This document shows, piece after piece, positions 2,012 to 39,693 of a stretch of 64,000 nucleotides of DNA; position 1 is the stretch's first letter, and the number at the start of each line of letters is the position of its first letter. Where the stretch lies: positions 62,001-126,000 of the IMG/VR virus record IMGVR_UViG_3300009506_000004; one strand, given 5' to 3'. The position numbers and the translations under genes are program-made. Below the pieces are notes generated by a model. The model had not been told where the DNA came from, did no database searches, and was given only the letters and a program-made list of their open reading frames with translations. Origin of the DNA: a virus.

Positions 2012-4007
2012 TATAATCCTCACTAAAATTCCCTAAAGTCATTAATTCAACCTTTCTGTTATCTTTCAAAACATTCAATACTCTTCTGTCAGTTGGTAAA
2101 TGAAAAAGATCAACAATAGTAGCACCACCTGTCATACCAGTTCTATGTATTCTATCTTCTGCTTGTGTTCTGCTAGCTGGGTCAAAATCATTACTATAAA
2201 AAACAGCTACAGTAGAACCAGGTATCTTACCTTGTGGGCATAGTGTTAATGAAACACCACCAGATTTTGGATGTGCTATAAATGCTACTTTGTTATTATT
2301 TGGATCAGTCCAATAATCAAGTGGGTTTGGTAATTTTATAACTTCTGTCTTTAATGAACCATCTTCATTTTGTGCCCTAATTAATTTTTCAATACGCCAA
2401 CCTCTACCATCAACACGCATTGTATCCCATCCTTCTTTTTGCGCTGTTTTTATTAACCTATCAATAGACCCAGTAAAACCAGCAAAAATCACAATTCTTC
2501 CATCATCACTAACTTGGTTGAGTAAATCTACTATCGCATCAATTTTTGGACAAGCAACTTCGCGCGTTATTCTTTTATATTTTACTATTTTTCTTGAACC
2601 ATTACAAACAGTACATGAAATTGTTCTCTGTTGTAATTCTGATACAAAATCAGATGAAAGCAAGTCAATATCTCTTATAGTAGCATCAGGATCATTTGGA
2701 TGAAAATACTGTAACTCAGTACCATCTGTACAAGCATTACAATCTTCAAAACCATCTTCTATCTCACGGTACTGAAATCCATCAGACAATTCTCGTAATT
2801 GAGTTAAACCAATTATCACATTCTGAGCTGTTCTAACTAAAGCTCCAGCTACACGTAATATAGCTGGTTTTGGTTCACAAATAATCTCTTTATATACTTT
2901 ATCTGGGAGATCTAAACAATCTTCTTTATGGACTACAGTTACTAATCCTTTTAATCTTTGATATAAAAGAGCTACTTCATTAGTTGATTGTTTATATGTG
3001 TGTATATCAAAATTAACATCTTCACAAATAATTTCTCCATCATTTAAAATATGGTGGCCAAATTCCAAATAATGACCACACTCAGCACAACGTTTTTCAT
3101 CATTCTTCCAAGCTACTCTAACAGGATATATTTGACCAGATAAATTATCTTCAAGTCTAAAAAAGCCTAATCTTTTTTCAAATGCTTCTATAGAACCTTC
3201 TTTCACAAACCCAGGCCAAGTAACTTCACATTGAGACCACCAATCTCTTGGTGCCTTTGGTGAAGGTGTTCCTGTCATAAGAATTACGTATCCATTCTTT
3301 CCATATTCATCACGTATAGTATTAGCTAATTGTTGAGCGCATTGAGCCCTCTGAGTAGTTGGCGTTTTTATATTTTGAGTTTCATCAAAAATAACCCCCT
3401 GTGGTGCCGGGTCACCAGATTTCCACTCCCTCATTTTCTTCTTTAAACCATCATACGAAAGCATTACTGGGCAAATATTTTCATCCAATCCCCATTTTAT
3501 AAATTCTTTTCGTATTCCGTATAATGAAGATTTAGGTCCAATCCACCACCAAGGTTTAACACCAGATAATTTCATTACTGCAATAGCTGATAAAGTTTTA
3601 CCGACCCCTAAACCAGCAGCCCAAATTTGGTAATGATAAGTTAATGCAATATCTGACATTAATTTTTGGTGTGCCATTAAATCAAAATATCCGAAATCGG
3701 CACTACCGAATTTCGGATAATCATGTGTTATAATTGGTCTATCAAACCATTCATATGGATTTCCACCACTCAAATAATCAATTTGAAATAAATTTCTATG
3801 AGTGTTGGCTATTGTCCAAATTTTTCTAGGGTGACTAATATCATTTCCGCACCAATGCGAACCCTGCATTGACTTAATCTCATCTTTAAGAGCAAATGGA
3901 AGTTTAAGGAATTCAATTCTCGACCCATCTATCTTGTATTCTACTGGAAACTTATATGTACCTTTTTTCGTTTCATGAATAAACTTAGTCTTTATAACTT
4001 CACACAT
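2004..4007 (-). CDS. SNF2-type superfamily 2 DNA helicase
   Basis: Product of 667 residues. The N-terminal RecA lobe carries Walker A GLGVGKT (about 132-138), motif II DETQ (about 208-211) and motif III LMTGTPSP. The C-terminal lobe has IVIFAGFTGSIDRL and motif VI QAEDRIHRTG near the end. Two CxxC pairs sit between the lobes (CAECG with a later C, and CNAC/CTVC), suggesting a zinc-binding insertion. Phage SNF2-like helicases are usually placed in replication or recombination. It is stop-overlapped with the RNA ligase and 3 nt from the HNH gene. Confidence 0.85.
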   Translation of the reverse strand: MCEVIKTKFIHETKKGTYKFPVEYKIDGSRIEFLKLPFALKDEIKSMQGSHWCGNDISHPRKIWTIANTHRNLFQIDYLSGGNPYEWFDRPIITHDYPKFGSADFGYFDLMAHQKLMSDIALTYHYQIWAAGLGVGKTLSAIAVMKLSGVKPWWWIGPKSSLYGIRKEFIKWGLDENICPVMLSYDGLKKKMREWKSGDPAPQGVIFDETQNIKTPTTQRAQCAQQLANTIRDEYGKNGYVILMTGTPSPKAPRDWWSQCEVTWPGFVKEGSIEAFEKRLGFFRLEDNLSGQIYPVRVAWKNDEKRCAECGHYLEFGHHILNDGEIICEDVNFDIHTYKQSTNEVALLYQRLKGLVTVVHKEDCLDLPDKVYKEIICEPKPAILRVAGALVRTAQNVIIGLTQLRELSDGFQYREIEDGFEDCNACTDGTELQYFHPNDPDATIRDIDLLSSDFVSELQQRTISCTVCNGSRKIVKYKRITREVACPKIDAIVDLLNQVSDDGRIVIFAGFTGSIDRLIKTAQKEGWDTMRVDGRGWRIEKLIRAQNEDGSLKTEVIKLPNPLDYWTDPNNNKVAFIAHPKSGGVSLTLCPQGKIPGSTVAVFYSNDFDPASRTQAEDRIHRTGMTGGATIVDLFHLPTDRRVLNVLKDNRKVELMTLGNFSEDYNV

Positions 4008-4010
4008 TAA

Positions 4011-4877
4011 TTAAACCTTTGCAAAATTACTATGATATTTCTCAGCTGCTTTTTTGTAAGTTTTAGCTGCTTCTTCTATGTCATCAAAAAGACCTAAATG
4101 TTTTTGTTTACTGTTTACTTGAATTTTCACTTGCCATTTATTACGATGCCAACTAACACCTTTATGACCACTAGTATTATTTTTCTGTTTTCCTCTATTC
4201 ATTTTATTTTGTGAACGAGTAGCAGATCTTAAATTTTCTCTTCTATTGTCTAATTTATCACCATTTATGTGGTCAATATCATTAGATAAATCTAATCCCA
4301 TCCGTTCTGCTATTTCTCTATGCATAAGAATGGTTCTATAAGCATAACGATTATAACACCAACTAAATTGACTAAGATCATAGTCTTCTTCAGAAACAAT
4401 AGCAAATTTATTTTTAGGTAGTAAAATTTTCTTTCCAAGTAGTAAAATTACATTATTTGTAGCAAATTCTCCAAAATATTTTTCAGCAGCTTCTTTGTAA
4501 GCTTTAGCTGCTTCTTCTTTATCTTCAAAACAACCTAAATGTTTCTTTTTACCATTTATTATAATTCGTGCCTCCCATTTATTACGATGCCAACTAACAC
4601 CTTTATGACCACTAGTATTATTTTTAGGTTTTCCACTATTCATCATATTTTGAGAACGAGTAGCAGACCTTAAATTTTCTCTTCTATTATCTAGTTTATC
4701 ACCATTTATATGATCAATTTCGTTTGATAAATCTAATCCCATTCTTTCTGCTATTCCTCTATGCATAAGAATATTTCTACGAGCATAATCTTTATAACAC
4801 CAATTAAATTGACTAAGATATTCAAAATCTTCTTCAGAAACAATAACAAATTTATTTCTAGATAATTCAATCCTCAT
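4011..4877 (-). CDS. Double HNH-AP2 homing-endonuclease-like protein
   Basis: One 288-residue frame made of two near-copies of the same unit of about 140 residues. Each copy has an N-terminal SEED...W.Y segment, an HNH core (MHR.IAERMGLDLSN.IDHINGDKLDNRRENLRSA) and a C-terminal AP2-like DNA-binding domain (NNTSGHKGVSWHRNKW...HLG.F). The usual family member is single-unit, so this is an in-frame tandem fusion. Both copies keep the H, the IDHINGDK block and the N residues, so both may be active. ATG overlaps the previous stop (ATGA). A third, broken copy is at 62683-63163. Confidence 0.85.
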   Translation of the reverse strand: MRIELSRNKFVIVSEEDFEYLSQFNWCYKDYARRNILMHRGIAERMGLDLSNEIDHINGDKLDNRRENLRSATRSQNMMNSGKPKNNTSGHKGVSWHRNKWEARIIINGKKKHLGCFEDKEEAAKAYKEAAEKYFGEFATNNVILLLGKKILLPKNKFAIVSEEDYDLSQFSWCYNRYAYRTILMHREIAERMGLDLSNDIDHINGDKLDNRRENLRSATRSQNKMNRGKQKNNTSGHKGVSWHRNKWQVKIQVNSKQKHLGLFDDIEEAAKTYKKAAEKYHSNFAKV

Positions 4878-5365
4878 TTTAAAAATTTCACATTCCCAAA
4901 AACAGTATCATGAATAAAATTATCAAGGTCATATTTTGCAAATTGAGAATAGCATACTTTTCCCCACTCTTTTACAGAATTATTATAATCAGTAGAATGT
5001 TTTAATGCCAATGACCATTGTTCTCCATCACCTGTAAAAATTACGGATAGTATACCACGATTCTCTTTACTTTGTAGGCAACGTAAATTATGTGGAAAAC
5101 CCATCACATCTATTATATCAAATTCTGGACCAGCGCATAACATTCCAAAATGCATCATCCCAAATAAATTACTTAATTCGTCGATCTTTGAGGTATTACC
5201 GCAGTCATTAAATAGTTTAAAATAAGCTAATAAATAAGCATATTTGCTTTTTGGTCTCTTACAATTTTGGAGTGTTGCAGCTGTATTTATACCTATTAAC
5301 TGTTCACAAAAGGAGTGGAAAGAATCATTCAAAGTACTTATAGAAATCATTTCAGCATGTATCAT
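4874..5365 (-). CDS. Hypothetical protein (163 aa)
   Basis: Not recognised. Cysteine residues are scattered and there is no signal or membrane segment. It overlaps the HNH gene by 4 nt and the upstream metallopeptidase gene by 14 nt, so it is part of the same leftward transcript. The segment FGMMHFGMLCAGPEFDIIDVMGF is hydrophobic but broken by charges, so probably a buried core and not a membrane helix. Confidence 0.6.
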   Translation of the reverse strand: MIHAEMISISTLNDSFHSFCEQLIGINTAATLQNCKRPKSKYAYLLAYFKLFNDCGNTSKIDELSNLFGMMHFGMLCAGPEFDIIDVMGFPHNLRCLQSKENRGILSVIFTGDGEQWSLALKHSTDYNNSVKEWGKVCYSQFAKYDLDNFIHDTVFGNVKFLK

Positions 5366-6331: not shown

Positions 6332-6400
6332 TGGCAGAGACAGGAATTGAACCTGTAAATTCGGCTTATGAGACCGAATGGGATACCAATCCACTCTGCT
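6332..6400 (-). tRNA. tRNA with CAT anticodon (Met, initiator or Ile2), short D-arm
   Basis: Acceptor AGCAGAG/CTCTGCC has six pairs plus an A1-C72 mismatch, which recalls the unpaired 1-72 end of bacterial initiator tRNAs. Anticodon stem TCGGT/GCCGA has loop CTCATAA (CAT). The T-arm ACAGG-TTCAATT-CCTGT is perfect. Only 16 nt lie between acceptor and anticodon stem, so the D-arm is about three nt shorter than normal (stem of three). The anticodon stem lacks the full GGG:CCC run of initiators. Elongator Met, initiator Met and lysidine-type Ile all remain possible. Confidence 0.75.
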
Positions 6401-36461: not shown

Positions 36462-37838
36462 TTAACCGAGCAATAGAACGGCAAGGTTGTCGTCAAGGAC
36501 AGCTGTTCCGCACAGCAAATCCAACACAACCTTAGTTCCACCAGCATCGATATCATACTGCATAGTAGCGCGCATCGCAATGTCATTATAAGATGAAACA
36601 AAGGATCGAGCACCTTCAGACGCATCCGGTCGCGCTAATGGTCGAGTGACCAACGCAAACGAATTACGATGAAATGCAACATTGAAATCACCAGCTGGGC
36701 CAGGGAAGGCACCATCGCCATCAGTTAACGCAAGATCAAGGGGTCGATCTAACAGAACCTTAACCTCAGTTGCACTAACTGTAATGGTTTCAATGACAGA
36801 ATATGTATGACGTGTCGTAGGTGTTGTACCAAATGCAATGAGCTGGCCAACTACAGGTGGTTTTCCAGATGTAAAACCATCAATACTAATATACTTAGCA
36901 TAACCAGCAGAGTAGTTACCATTAACATCAGCCATCATATAAACCGTGATAACAGCACCACTTTCAACATCATACTTAATAGCTTCGTTAAGTGTGGCAG
37001 CAGTTGTATCAGTTGTGTCATCAACTTCAGCTGTGATCCAAGTTGGCTGATCATTACCGGCCAGATTGGCAAATTCACCAACGTTACAAACATAATCTGT
37101 AACATCAAACGCTGTCAACGAACCAGTTGTACCCGCAGCAATAGCCGCAGTAGTAGCACCAAGAACTGTGTCACGCGAAGCAGTTGATAATACACCATTC
37201 ACATTCTGGTCCATGAATGTGTCAAAACTACCAATACGGCCTAACAAAGCCTCTTCCAGCGCTGTTCCACCGTCACCACGTTTTTCTGAACTAACAAAAA
37301 GTTCAGTCTTTAGCATAGCTGTTTCGGACCCTGGAGCCAAAACTAACTTACGACCCGATGTATGGGCTAATGTTCGGTTTAACTTCTCTCGGGCTTCCAG
37401 CACAGTATCCCAAGCATTGCTGGATGTAAGATTAAGTAACCGCCCAACACGATCTTCAGGGTCACCGATCAGCGCATGAGCCATACGACCGACTATAGCA
37501 CGATCAATACCATTACCCATGGCTTTCATACCTGGGACTAAATGAACCTGAATAAGATCTTGCAAAGACTTCGACCGCTCACCATCCTTAATAACAAAAC
37601 CAGCATACATATGCTGATTAAGTGGAACTTGTACGTTAGTAACAACAGCATCATTATACTCAGTTGTATCAGAATCTGTCTTTCGATACACCTTCATATC
37701 AGCTGGCTTACGTGTATTAACCACGTCACCATAATCTTTAACTTCCATCGAGAAATCCCGATGAACTAACATACCCATAATCATGTTCTCTTCGAGAACA
37801 GCAATAGACTCCCGTGCCCAAACTTCTGGGACAAGCAT
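36462..37838 (-). CDS. Major capsid protein, P22 coat-like (exon 2; frame opens at 37838)
   Basis: The frame from ATG 37838 gives 458 residues: LVPEVWARESIAVLEENMIM, an HK97-like core, an inserted beta domain (about 210-350) and FHRNSFALVTRPL near the C-terminus, as in P22-type coat proteins. This ATG has no ribosome site and follows a stop directly. The first codon is better read as the last bases of a group I intron, making exon 2 36462-37835. Joined to exon 1 (38714-38764) the protein is 474 residues. Codons are richer in G/C at third positions than its neighbours, consistent with high expression. Confidence 0.85.
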   Translation of the reverse strand: MLVPEVWARESIAVLEENMIMGMLVHRDFSMEVKDYGDVVNTRKPADMKVYRKTDSDTTEYNDAVVTNVQVPLNQHMYAGFVIKDGERSKSLQDLIQVHLVPGMKAMGNGIDRAIVGRMAHALIGDPEDRVGRLLNLTSSNAWDTVLEAREKLNRTLAHTSGRKLVLAPGSETAMLKTELFVSSEKRGDGGTALEEALLGRIGSFDTFMDQNVNGVLSTASRDTVLGATTAAIAAGTTGSLTAFDVTDYVCNVGEFANLAGNDQPTWITAEVDDTTDTTAATLNEAIKYDVESGAVITVYMMADVNGNYSAGYAKYISIDGFTSGKPPVVGQLIAFGTTPTTRHTYSVIETITVSATEVKVLLDRPLDLALTDGDGAFPGPAGDFNVAFHRNSFALVTRPLARPDASEGARSFVSSYNDIAMRATMQYDIDAGGTKVVLDLLCGTAVLDDNLAVLLLG

Positions 37839-38713
37839 TTATGTTAACTATATATTTCTATATAGATCAGACTATATCTTCATCAACCAATTATAGCAAG
37901 ATTGCAATTTATGTTTTGTAATTTCATTTTCTTGTTCTAGTATTGTATTACATTTTCTACATACAACACCTAATACTTTATTGTCTACGTGATGTATATA
38001 AGGTAATGTAAGAATATTATTACAACAATCACAATTTTTTGAATTTCTCAAAATTGATACTTGTTCAAATGTTAAATTATAAACATATGTTTTGACAAGT
38101 ATTTTATAGCAATCTTTACATGTTGCATATAAACCATATTTTCCACTTTGGTATTTTTGTTTATAGAAATTCTTCTTTGGTTTATATTGTTTGCAGCATT
38201 TGCATAATCGTTGAGTTGCGCGTGTAGTCGTTGAGGGGTCAGGTTCCTTTTGCTGACTTCCCTGCTGATTGACTCTATTGAATAGATTTTTACGATCTTT
38301 TTGTATAAATTCTAAACAGGACTTTATACGGTGTAAATCTTCTTTTGTTTCTTGTCCTAATGTTATATTACAATAATGACAAAGAATACCTTTAACCTTA
38401 TGCTCAACATGATGAAGATTCTTTTTTAAATTTGTTAAATCTTCACCACAACACATACATAAAGATTCTTTTCTAAAATTTATTACTTGTTCGCATGTAA
38501 TACCAAGTCTATTAGCTGCTTTTTTAATAGACCAGCATTGTTTACAAATATTTCTATATTTTTTTGAATCTTTTCTAAAATGATATTCTTTAATAGATTT
38601 ATTTTTTTTACATTTTGAACAAATTTTAAATATCGTACTATTCACTTATCAAGTTGTTCCAGCATATAGCGCAATTCTTATTAGAAATCGCTTTCTAATA
38701 GGCCCATGTTCTA
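37836..38713 (-). ncRNA. Group I intron interrupting the major capsid gene
   Basis: Core pairings visible on the leftward strand: P2 (TATTAGAAA/TTTCTAATA, 38679-38700); P3 (GAATTGCGC 38677-38669 with GCGCAACTC 38221-38213, one mismatch); P4 (TGCTG 38664 with CAGCA 38267); P6 (GTCAG/CTGAC); P7 (GACTA 38229-38225 with TAGTC 37874-37870 in the S-type AAGATATAGTC). P1 pairs exon GCU with GGC, giving a U-G at the 5' site. The intron ends in G. P10 pairs four of five positions. Length 878 nt. Exact splice sites are inferred. Confidence 0.85.
37872..38645 (-). CDS. Intron-encoded double endonuclease VII-like protein (257 aa)
   Basis: Two treble-clef HNH/Endo VII domains. Domain 1 (residues about 8-115) has CSKCKKNKS...CKQC, CMCCGEDL and HHVEHKVKGILCHYCNITLG. 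Domain 2 (about 148-255) has CKCCKQYKP...CKDC, CDCCNN and HHVDNKVLGVVCRKCNTIL. Residues about 125-145 between them are encoded by the ribozyme P4-P6-P7-P3 core, and the stop lies in the S element. It starts at GTG 38645. It is presumably a homing endonuclease for the intron-less coat gene. Whether one chain or two proteins are made is open. Confidence 0.8.
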   Translation of the reverse strand: MNSTIFKICSKCKKNKSIKEYHFRKDSKKYRNICKQCWSIKKAANRLGITCEQVINFRKESLCMCCGEDLTNLKKNLHHVEHKVKGILCHYCNITLGQETKEDLHRIKSCLEFIQKDRKNLFNRVNQQGSQQKEPDPSTTTRATQRLCKCCKQYKPKKNFYKQKYQSGKYGLYATCKDCYKILVKTYVYNLTFEQVSILRNSKNCDCCNNILTLPYIHHVDNKVLGVVCRKCNTILEQENEITKHKLQSCYNWLMKI

Positions 38714-38764
38714 AGCGTCGTTATCATTGGCATAAGAAGCCAAAATTGTGTAAAAATAAAACAT
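38714..38764 (-). CDS. Major capsid protein exon 1
   Basis: ATG 38764 has GGGAG eight nt upstream, followed by 16 further codons ending ASYANDNDA. The zero frame then meets TAG, the first bases of the intron. Removing 37836-38713 joins NDA to LVPEVWARES in frame. This supplies the ribosome site and N-terminal arm missing from the downstream frame. The opening resembles the start of the scaffold protein (M-FWYEILASY). Confidence 0.75.
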
Positions 38765-38832: not shown

Positions 38833-39693
38833 TTAACGTCTTTTATAATTCAAACCTAAAGCGGCTGGGTTCTCTTTTCTAAGTTTGAACCATTGTTCGT
38901 CTGTTAATCGTTTATGATCAACATTCCCAGACCCGATATTACCACCATCGGTAGCGTTTTGGGAGCCAATACCTTCTCGAATATTATTCTTGAAGAAATT
39001 GCCCCATTGTGAAGGATTCTTTTTCATATACTCAACGGCTTCATCAGGCGTCATTTGAAGTCGTTCAGATACACCAGTATCCTCATTTTTAACTGTCATC
39101 GTGACCATAGGAATCAGTTGGCCAGTTGGCTGTCCTTTTGCATCTTTAGCTTCTACTAATTCTGTTTGACCACGTAATTGAACAATAATTTGCGAAGGAT
39201 TAAAAGCCTCATGCTTAATAGCAGCAGATTGAAGTGCTTGGAAAATAGTAGATTCAGTATATCTATCTTCCCAAACTTTAGCTGCTTTTGTTGCTTCTTC
39301 TAATTGCTGCACATATTTATCTTCTTTTTGTTTATTATCGTAAGCAATCTGTTGTTCCTTTGTACGATGTCTAGCCTGAAGATCATCTAATTCCTTCTGT
39401 AATTTTTCTTTTTCTTCTTTACTAACATTTTGATTTCTCAAAAGTTCTTGATAACTAGTTTCTAATGAAGAATATTTATCTTGATGTTTTCTACGGTCTT
39501 CAGCTAAGAACTTATTGACATCATCTTGTGTGAATGTTTTACCAGAATCTGTTCCTTTACCAGAATCTGTTCCTTTACCAGAATCTGTTCCTTTACCAGA
39601 ATCTGTTTCTTTACCAGAATCTATTCCATCACCAGAATCTGTTCCATCACCACTGCCTTCATAAGAAGCTAATATTTCATACCAAAATAACAT
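38833..39693 (-). CDS. Capsid scaffolding protein (286 aa)
   Basis: Acidic and helix-rich, directly upstream of the coat gene. A hexapeptide repeat of the TDSGKG type (about six copies, 18-bp DNA repeats) near residues 15-50 is followed by FTQDDVNKFLAEDRRK and a coiled coil to about residue 140. The C-terminus is basic (KRLTDEQWFKLRKENP), as in scaffold coat-binding domains. ATG 39693 has GGAGG five nt upstream and is preferred over an in-frame start at 39726. Confidence 0.8.
   Translation of the reverse strand: MLFWYEILASYEGSGDGTDSGDGIDSGKETDSGKGTDSGKGTDSGKGTDSGKTFTQDDVNKFLAEDRRKHQDKYSSLETSYQELLRNQNVSKEEKEKLQKELDDLQARHRTKEQQIAYDNKQKEDKYVQQLEEATKAAKVWEDRYTESTIFQALQSAAIKHEAFNPSQIIVQLRGQTELVEAKDAKGQPTGQLIPMVTMTVKNEDTGVSERLQMTPDEAVEYMKKNPSQWGNFFKNNIREGIGSQNATDGGNIGSGNVDHKRLTDEQWFKLRKENPAALGLNYKRR

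Follow-up and report, generated by a model that had tools for sequence, protein, structure and literature searches.

A group I intron in the P22-like coat gene of an uncultivated phage carries one predicted open reading frame (ORF) that passes through the P5 loop, the ribozyme core and the P8 loop, and comparison of the sequences of ten homologous introns confirmed that this arrangement is conserved. Each loop appears to encode a complete endonuclease VII (EndoVII)-like unit, and the core itself supplies the codons that join the two. The intron was found in a 64,000-nt stretch (hereafter the window, to which unprefixed coordinates refer) of a 129-kb virus record. The terminase-like gene of this virus is ~22–25% identical to those of phage records, and the virus is thus remote from known phages.

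A group I intron in the coat gene

The interrupted coat gene is organised as follows.

38714–38764, minus strand: 5' exon of the coat gene, MFYFYTILASYANDNDA, with GCU as its last codon; contiguous with LIPELWARES in intronless relatives
37836–38713, minus strand: group I intron of 878 nt, with its 5' end after U and its 3' end at G; ends set by intronless coat genes
36462–37835, minus strand: 3' exon, the body of the P22-like coat gene, which starts CUUGUCCCA (PF11651, E = 4e-26; PHROG 283, E = 7e-51)

In an alignment of more than 30 coat gene relatives from IMG/VR, the sequence ...ANDNDA-LIPELWARES... runs uninterrupted across the junction of the window, which fixes both splice sites, and the junction is likewise uninterrupted in 77 of 80 members of a second, overlapping set of relatives. 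Exact removal of the intron restores the coat gene as judged against the intronless genes, with U preceding the intron and G as its last nucleotide. By sequence comparison, the P22-like coat gene is interrupted by a group I intron from 38713 to 37836 on the minus strand, and the doubt raised in an earlier note that there might be no intron at this site is removed by the intronless coat genes. The seeming ATG start of the coat gene at 37838 is intron sequence. The first in-frame codon of the intron is a TAG stop, and an immediate in-frame stop at the intron start is frequent in group I introns (PMC3073962, PMC3984707).

Homologous introns with two-unit ORFs lie at two sites of the same coat gene. 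Site 1, after ...ANDNDA, is occupied in the window, L005 and L041A, and site 2, after ...EENMV/I, in L031, L038, L043, L060, L074, L130 and L041B. Contig L041 has two homologous introns in one coat gene (2950–4920), each with a two-unit ORF, separated by an exon of ~50 nt. At a third site, between PEL and WAQEG, the intron of L164 (1790–2500) has a short P5 arm and just one unit, which occupies the P8 loop. The intron is optional at all three sites of this one gene, in divergent viruses.

Two further observations were made in the window. The N-terminal part of a scaffold-like gene just upstream of the coat gene includes a tandem repeat of DSGKGT (39550–39640), and the corresponding position in relatives is taken by other repeats (PPVDPP, APPA and EPAS). 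One of three tRNA genes, at 6332–6400, scored 38 bits as compared with 62–65 bits for the other two, and its D-arm region fits poorly in the covariance alignment.

One frame through two loops and the ribozyme core

The ORF and its parts are listed below.

37872–38645, minus strand: two-unit EndoVII-like ORF of 257 codons, with a GTG start, no internal stop and a terminal TAG inside P7'
38277–38627, minus strand: unit 1, residues 7–123, predicted zinc ribbon and EndoVII-like nuclease in the P5 loop (profiles, AlphaFold2)
38208–38276, minus strand: core read as a linker, residues 124–146, covering P5', P4', P6, P7, P3' and the P8 5' strand (open in 10 of 10 introns; pLDDT <50 at 124–142; dN/dS 0.65 in relatives)
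37875–38207, minus strand: unit 2, residues 147–257, predicted zinc ribbon and EndoVII-like nuclease in the P8 loop (profiles, AlphaFold2)

The helices of the core were assigned as follows.

38669–38674, minus strand: P3 5' strand, UUGCGC (partner 38216–38221; compensatory change in 5 of 6 pairs, 100% paired)
38660–38664, minus strand: P4 5' strand, UGCUG (partner 38263–38267; UGCAA/UUGCA in L005)
38651–38654, minus strand: P5 5' strand, ACUU (partner 38272–38275, across unit 1; 97.2% paired)
38263–38275, minus strand: P5' (38272–38275), J5/4 (CAAU) and P4' (38263–38267), from pairing in homologous introns
38225–38229, minus strand: P7 5' strand, GACUA (partner 37870–37874; GAUCA/UGAUC in L005, GAAUA/UAUUC in L041B)
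38216–38221, minus strand: P3 3' strand, GCGCAA (partner 38669–38674)
38210–38214, minus strand: P8 5' strand, UCAAC (partner 37883–37887; compensatory change in 5 of 5 pairs)
37883–37887, minus strand: P8 3' strand, GUUGA (partner 38210–38214)
37870–37874, minus strand: P7 3' strand, UAGUC, which holds the UAG stop of the ORF (P7 pairing; partial RF00028 match)

Covariation was assessed in nine of the ten introns (L130, the 5' part of which is missing, was left out), with helix arms chosen by hand. For P3, P4, P5, P7 and P8 together, 96.9% of the cells are paired and 16 of the 25 pairs show compensatory, two-sided change. The helix pairing values were equalled by none of 500 shuffles, and sliding the partners by 1–3 columns gave 26–40% pairing. 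P3 occurs as UUGCGC/GCGCAA, CUGGGC/GCCCGG, CUUGGC/GCCGAG, CGCAAC/GUUGCG, CACAGC/GCUGUG, CGCAGC/GCUGCG and UGUAGC/GCUACA; in P7 of most site-2 introns, only four of the five pairs are formed. The Rfam model RF00028 matched the window intron from P7' to the P9 end only, at 28.1 bits and below the cut-off of 50, probably because the two large insertions break the model. The full model was matched above the cut-off, at 55.8 bits, by the single-unit relative L164, which has less inserted sequence, and full-length matches in L038 (38.5 bits) and L060 (34.7 bits) were both under the cut-off of 50.

The earlier note, made from the letters of the window, had proposed one frame with two EndoVII-type domains threaded through the core: domain 1 between the P4 strands (P5 region), domain 2 between P3' and P7', and residues about 125–145 encoded by the core. 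The core elements lie where that reading put them, and its outline is borne out. Unit 1 can be placed more closely, in the P5 loop proper, because P5 and P5' pair across it; unit 2 is in the P8 loop, with P8 and P8' paired across it, and the core was found to supply codons about 124–146.

The two-unit single frame is present in all ten introns, which come from nine contigs of uncultivated phages and represent both sites. In the frame of the ORF the core segment is open in ten of ten, whereas stops interrupt the two remaining frames in five and nine of the ten. Length differences among the cores are always multiples of 3; in L060, differences of 2 nt and 1 nt in different core joints sum to 3. 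The stop of the ORF lies inside P7' in the window (TAG), L005 (TGA) and L041A (TAG); the difference in stop codon between the window and L005 goes with covariation of P7, so that the stop itself tracks the helix. At site 2 the frame continues beyond P7' and its end points vary. Sixty open codons on both sides were found in none of 17 further introns with the P5'/P4'/P7 motif and a nearby P4, as compared with eight of eight family members in the same motif scan; in these controls the P4 strand is merely 51–81 nt upstream. Rfam, applied to eight control loci, gave six group I introns above the cut-off, spread over five of the loci.

Sequencing error or lost stops as the source of the open frame, which the earlier note had named as a possible objection, is ruled out by the ten homologues. 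Homologues with the two units as separate genes, named there as well, were looked for, and none was met among the ten introns.

EndoVII-like units

PHROG 2633 (endonuclease VII) matched the ORF in two stretches (E = 7.4e-18), and PF02945 matched it with E = 3.6e-4 at 20.8 bits, below the cut-off of 23.6. Profiles of units 1 and 2 matched each other with an hhalign probability of 99.2% (E = 7e-20), and T4 EndoVII matched the unit 1 profile at E = 0.05–0.07. Either half is in build an entire free-standing phage EndoVII-type protein of about 120–145 aa. By profile match, the predicted product belongs to the EndoVII-like (His-Me finger) nuclease superfamily.

Zinc cysteines are retained in each unit of every ORF, as is an HH pair that aligns with D40-H41 of T4 EndoVII. 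Thus H41 is kept, the D40 position is occupied by H in 20 of 20 units, and N62 is nearly always present, the conserved N being lost in unit 2 of L041B. K or L stands at the R54 position of the window units, and R is not consistently kept across the family. Given the replacement of D40 by H and the loss of R54, the ORF falls outside the published DHHRN definition, which comprises the D-H of DHDH, R54, N62 and the zinc motifs CX2-4C and CX2C (PMC6083498). It resembles the DHHRN family, of which it is not counted as a member, and plausibly works in the same way; catalysis may nevertheless differ from that of T4 EndoVII on account of the same two positions.

The AlphaFold2 model (mean pLDDT 84.8) shows two folded units, and its sole low-confidence segment, residues 124–142, probably is a disordered linker that coincides with the core codons, which begin at codon 124. 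A Foldseek search of the PDB with the predicted structure gave no significant match, and a VIA structure comparison gave Z scores of 5.4 for Hpy99I and of only 3.1 for T4 EndoVII.

Selection on the units and the linker

In five site-2 relatives, dN/dS is 0.12 for unit 1, 0.65 for the linker and 0.11 for unit 2. Differences in the linker are spread evenly over the codon positions (57, 62 and 62), whereas those in the units concentrate at third positions. Judged by these substitution patterns, both units are under purifying selection and the core-encoded peptide is not. The even spread and the dN/dS of 0.65 indicate that RNA pairing and the open frame, not the encoded peptide, constrain the core. 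Hence, the statement of the earlier note that the same bases must satisfy both folding and frame stands for the pairing and for the openness of the frame, both of which are kept, but the burden is lopsided, as the peptide varies freely.

The equal dN/dS of the units bears on whether only one of them is catalytic, the other being a DNA-binding or RNA-binding (maturase-like) module. L164 manages with a lone P8-loop unit, divergence has occurred between units 1 and 2, and unit 2 of L041B is without the conserved N; the retention of the zinc cysteines and the HH pair in both units of every ORF, together with equal constraint, makes such a division of labour doubtful.

Probable duplication of the units

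In a tree of the units, first units group together (78/78) and second units group together (96/90), apart from free-standing proteins (100/96). When L164 was added, support for the second units dropped to 76/66, and all 20 units plus L164 formed a group separate from seven free-standing EndoVII proteins (100/97), a small outgroup sample. As units 1 and units 2 are sister groups, one duplication before the two sites diverged is indicated. Independent acquisition of two different endonucleases is disfavoured by the grouping of the 20 units and L164 apart from the small free-standing sample, and there is marginal evidence (p-AU 0.048) against a separate duplication at site 1. The duplicate insertion suggested in the earlier note is thereby supported as regards a single duplication.

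The short P5 arm of L164 encodes RDNLIAADNQQ, which resembles the tail of unit 1. This tail-like remnant hints that L164 may have lost unit 1, although the tree is compatible both with loss and with an origin before the duplication (p-AU 0.29).

No relatives were found in prokaryote genomes, and among 50,697 phage records there was no two-unit relative covering 80% of the query, partial matches being ~27–34% identical.

Start codons and expression

In the relatives, the ORF starts with ATG after a purine-rich, ribosome-binding-like sequence that ends GAGTACG. In the window (38620–38645), ATA is at the position of this ATG, GAGTACG is degraded, and the nearest start upstream is GTG with no clear SD. 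The 5' end of the ORF in the window is therefore uncertain, and expression of this copy may be low, silent or lost. The same features could mean that the window holds a decaying intron, the endonuclease of which is no longer made. This is unlikely, as 257 codons remain intact in AT-rich sequence, active-site residues are kept and the upstream GTG is available.

A hairpin hiding the ribosome-binding site was considered and dropped, as short 5' segments and their shuffled versions gave comparable folding (z –0.24 to 0.83). In L031 (2600–2640), L038 (1035–1065), L074 and L005, two partners are available to the P5 5' strand, namely P5' and the purine-rich ORF start. This alternative pairing of P5 is a possible switch, for which folding support is not beyond chance.

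From 8 codons before the start of the core to 70 codons after it, in-frame ATG, GTG and TTG are absent in the window and in L041A. Since no canonical start is near it, translation of unit 2 in the window would have to pass through the core, barring initiation at a non-canonical codon. That the loops instead hold two separate, independently translated endonuclease genes, the core frame being open by chance or artefact, is improbable: short open stretches are easily kept, and in some relatives an ATG or GTG lies in frame close to where unit 2 begins (codon 150 in L038 and L074, codon 146 in L130), but the frame is open in ten of ten with core length changes in threes, the window and L041A lack such a start, the 17 control introns have no such frame, and strong purifying selection on unit 2 implies that this unit is made.

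Proposed mechanism

The intron is likely, on the sequence data, to be a mobile group I intron with a single ORF for a two-unit EndoVII-type (beta-beta-alpha metal) homing endonuclease. It would remove itself from the coat mRNA by self-splicing, and some of the RNA would be translated straight through the core to give the two-unit endonuclease. On co-infection, this enzyme would cut intronless coat genes, with one unit acting on each strand, and repair of the cut gene would copy the intron in, leading to its spread. A protein insensitive to the sequence of its linker would allow the core to keep its RNA pairing while the frame stays open.

T4 EndoVII works as a dimer, and a single chain of two units could therefore act as a pseudo-dimer on different half-sites. 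Ribosomes that cross the core must unfold it; hence, splicing and translation would compete. As one RNA cannot be read as the ORF and be folded as the core simultaneously, translation should be timed or rare. With moderate confidence, the product is regarded as a single-chain EndoVII pseudo-dimer in which the core serves as an obligatory internal linker 'exon', the sequence of the hinge being ceded to the RNA fold and each RNA being either ribozyme or messenger at any moment.

The intron is an example of a nucleotide segment in the service of both a catalytic RNA and a protein, with the RNA keeping its pairing and the protein keeping the frame only; the role of the segment in the protein would be that of a disordered hinge, as modelled. 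It also offers a naturally occurring, predicted EndoVII-type enzyme with two units, and a conflict of splicing with translation that is conserved and open to experiment.

Comparison with known systems

What appears new is the fusion in frame, by the ribozyme core, of nuclease units in two loops, for which no report was found. The literature on two homing endonucleases per intron, bi-orfic introns and tandem HNH, with subscription papers outside the coverage, held no matching system. In a fungal mitochondrial cob intron there is also more than one endonuclease, and the authors were unaware of any previous report of an intron with several endonucleases (PMC11835236). However, that intron has separate LAGLIDADG ORFs, whereas the window intron has one fused frame.

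EndoVII-type homing endonucleases of phage group I introns are known from F-CphI/DHHRN and the introns of T7-like DNA polymerase genes (PMC6083498). The window ORF shares with F-CphI/DHHRN the EndoVII-type nuclease, the zinc cysteines, the catalytic H and N, and an intron-linked homing role, which is putative here. F-CphI/DHHRN is single-unit, whereas the window ORF has two units per chain, H in place of D and R not kept, and crosses the ribozyme core.

Monomeric two-domain LAGLIDADG enzymes likewise have two related domains per chain and can in principle read an asymmetric site (PMC3943268). Their fold, however, is unrelated to that of the EndoVII-type units. Nor is a ribozyme core known to lie between their two domains.

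Overlap of an ORF with group I core sequence is already known (PMC3073962, PMC3984707). Such 'core creep' extends over 20 nt for I-TevI in td and 56 nt in the nrdF intron, and the largest case in Table 1 of PMC3073962 is the Synechococcus lividus LSU intron, with 81 nt over P6/P7/P3/P8/P9. As in the window intron, bases double as ribozyme core and codons, and the 3' ends vary. In those introns, however, the overlap is a terminus of the ORF and has been proposed to be dispensable, whereas the overlap described here is internal and joins two conserved units, one of them being encoded downstream of the core.
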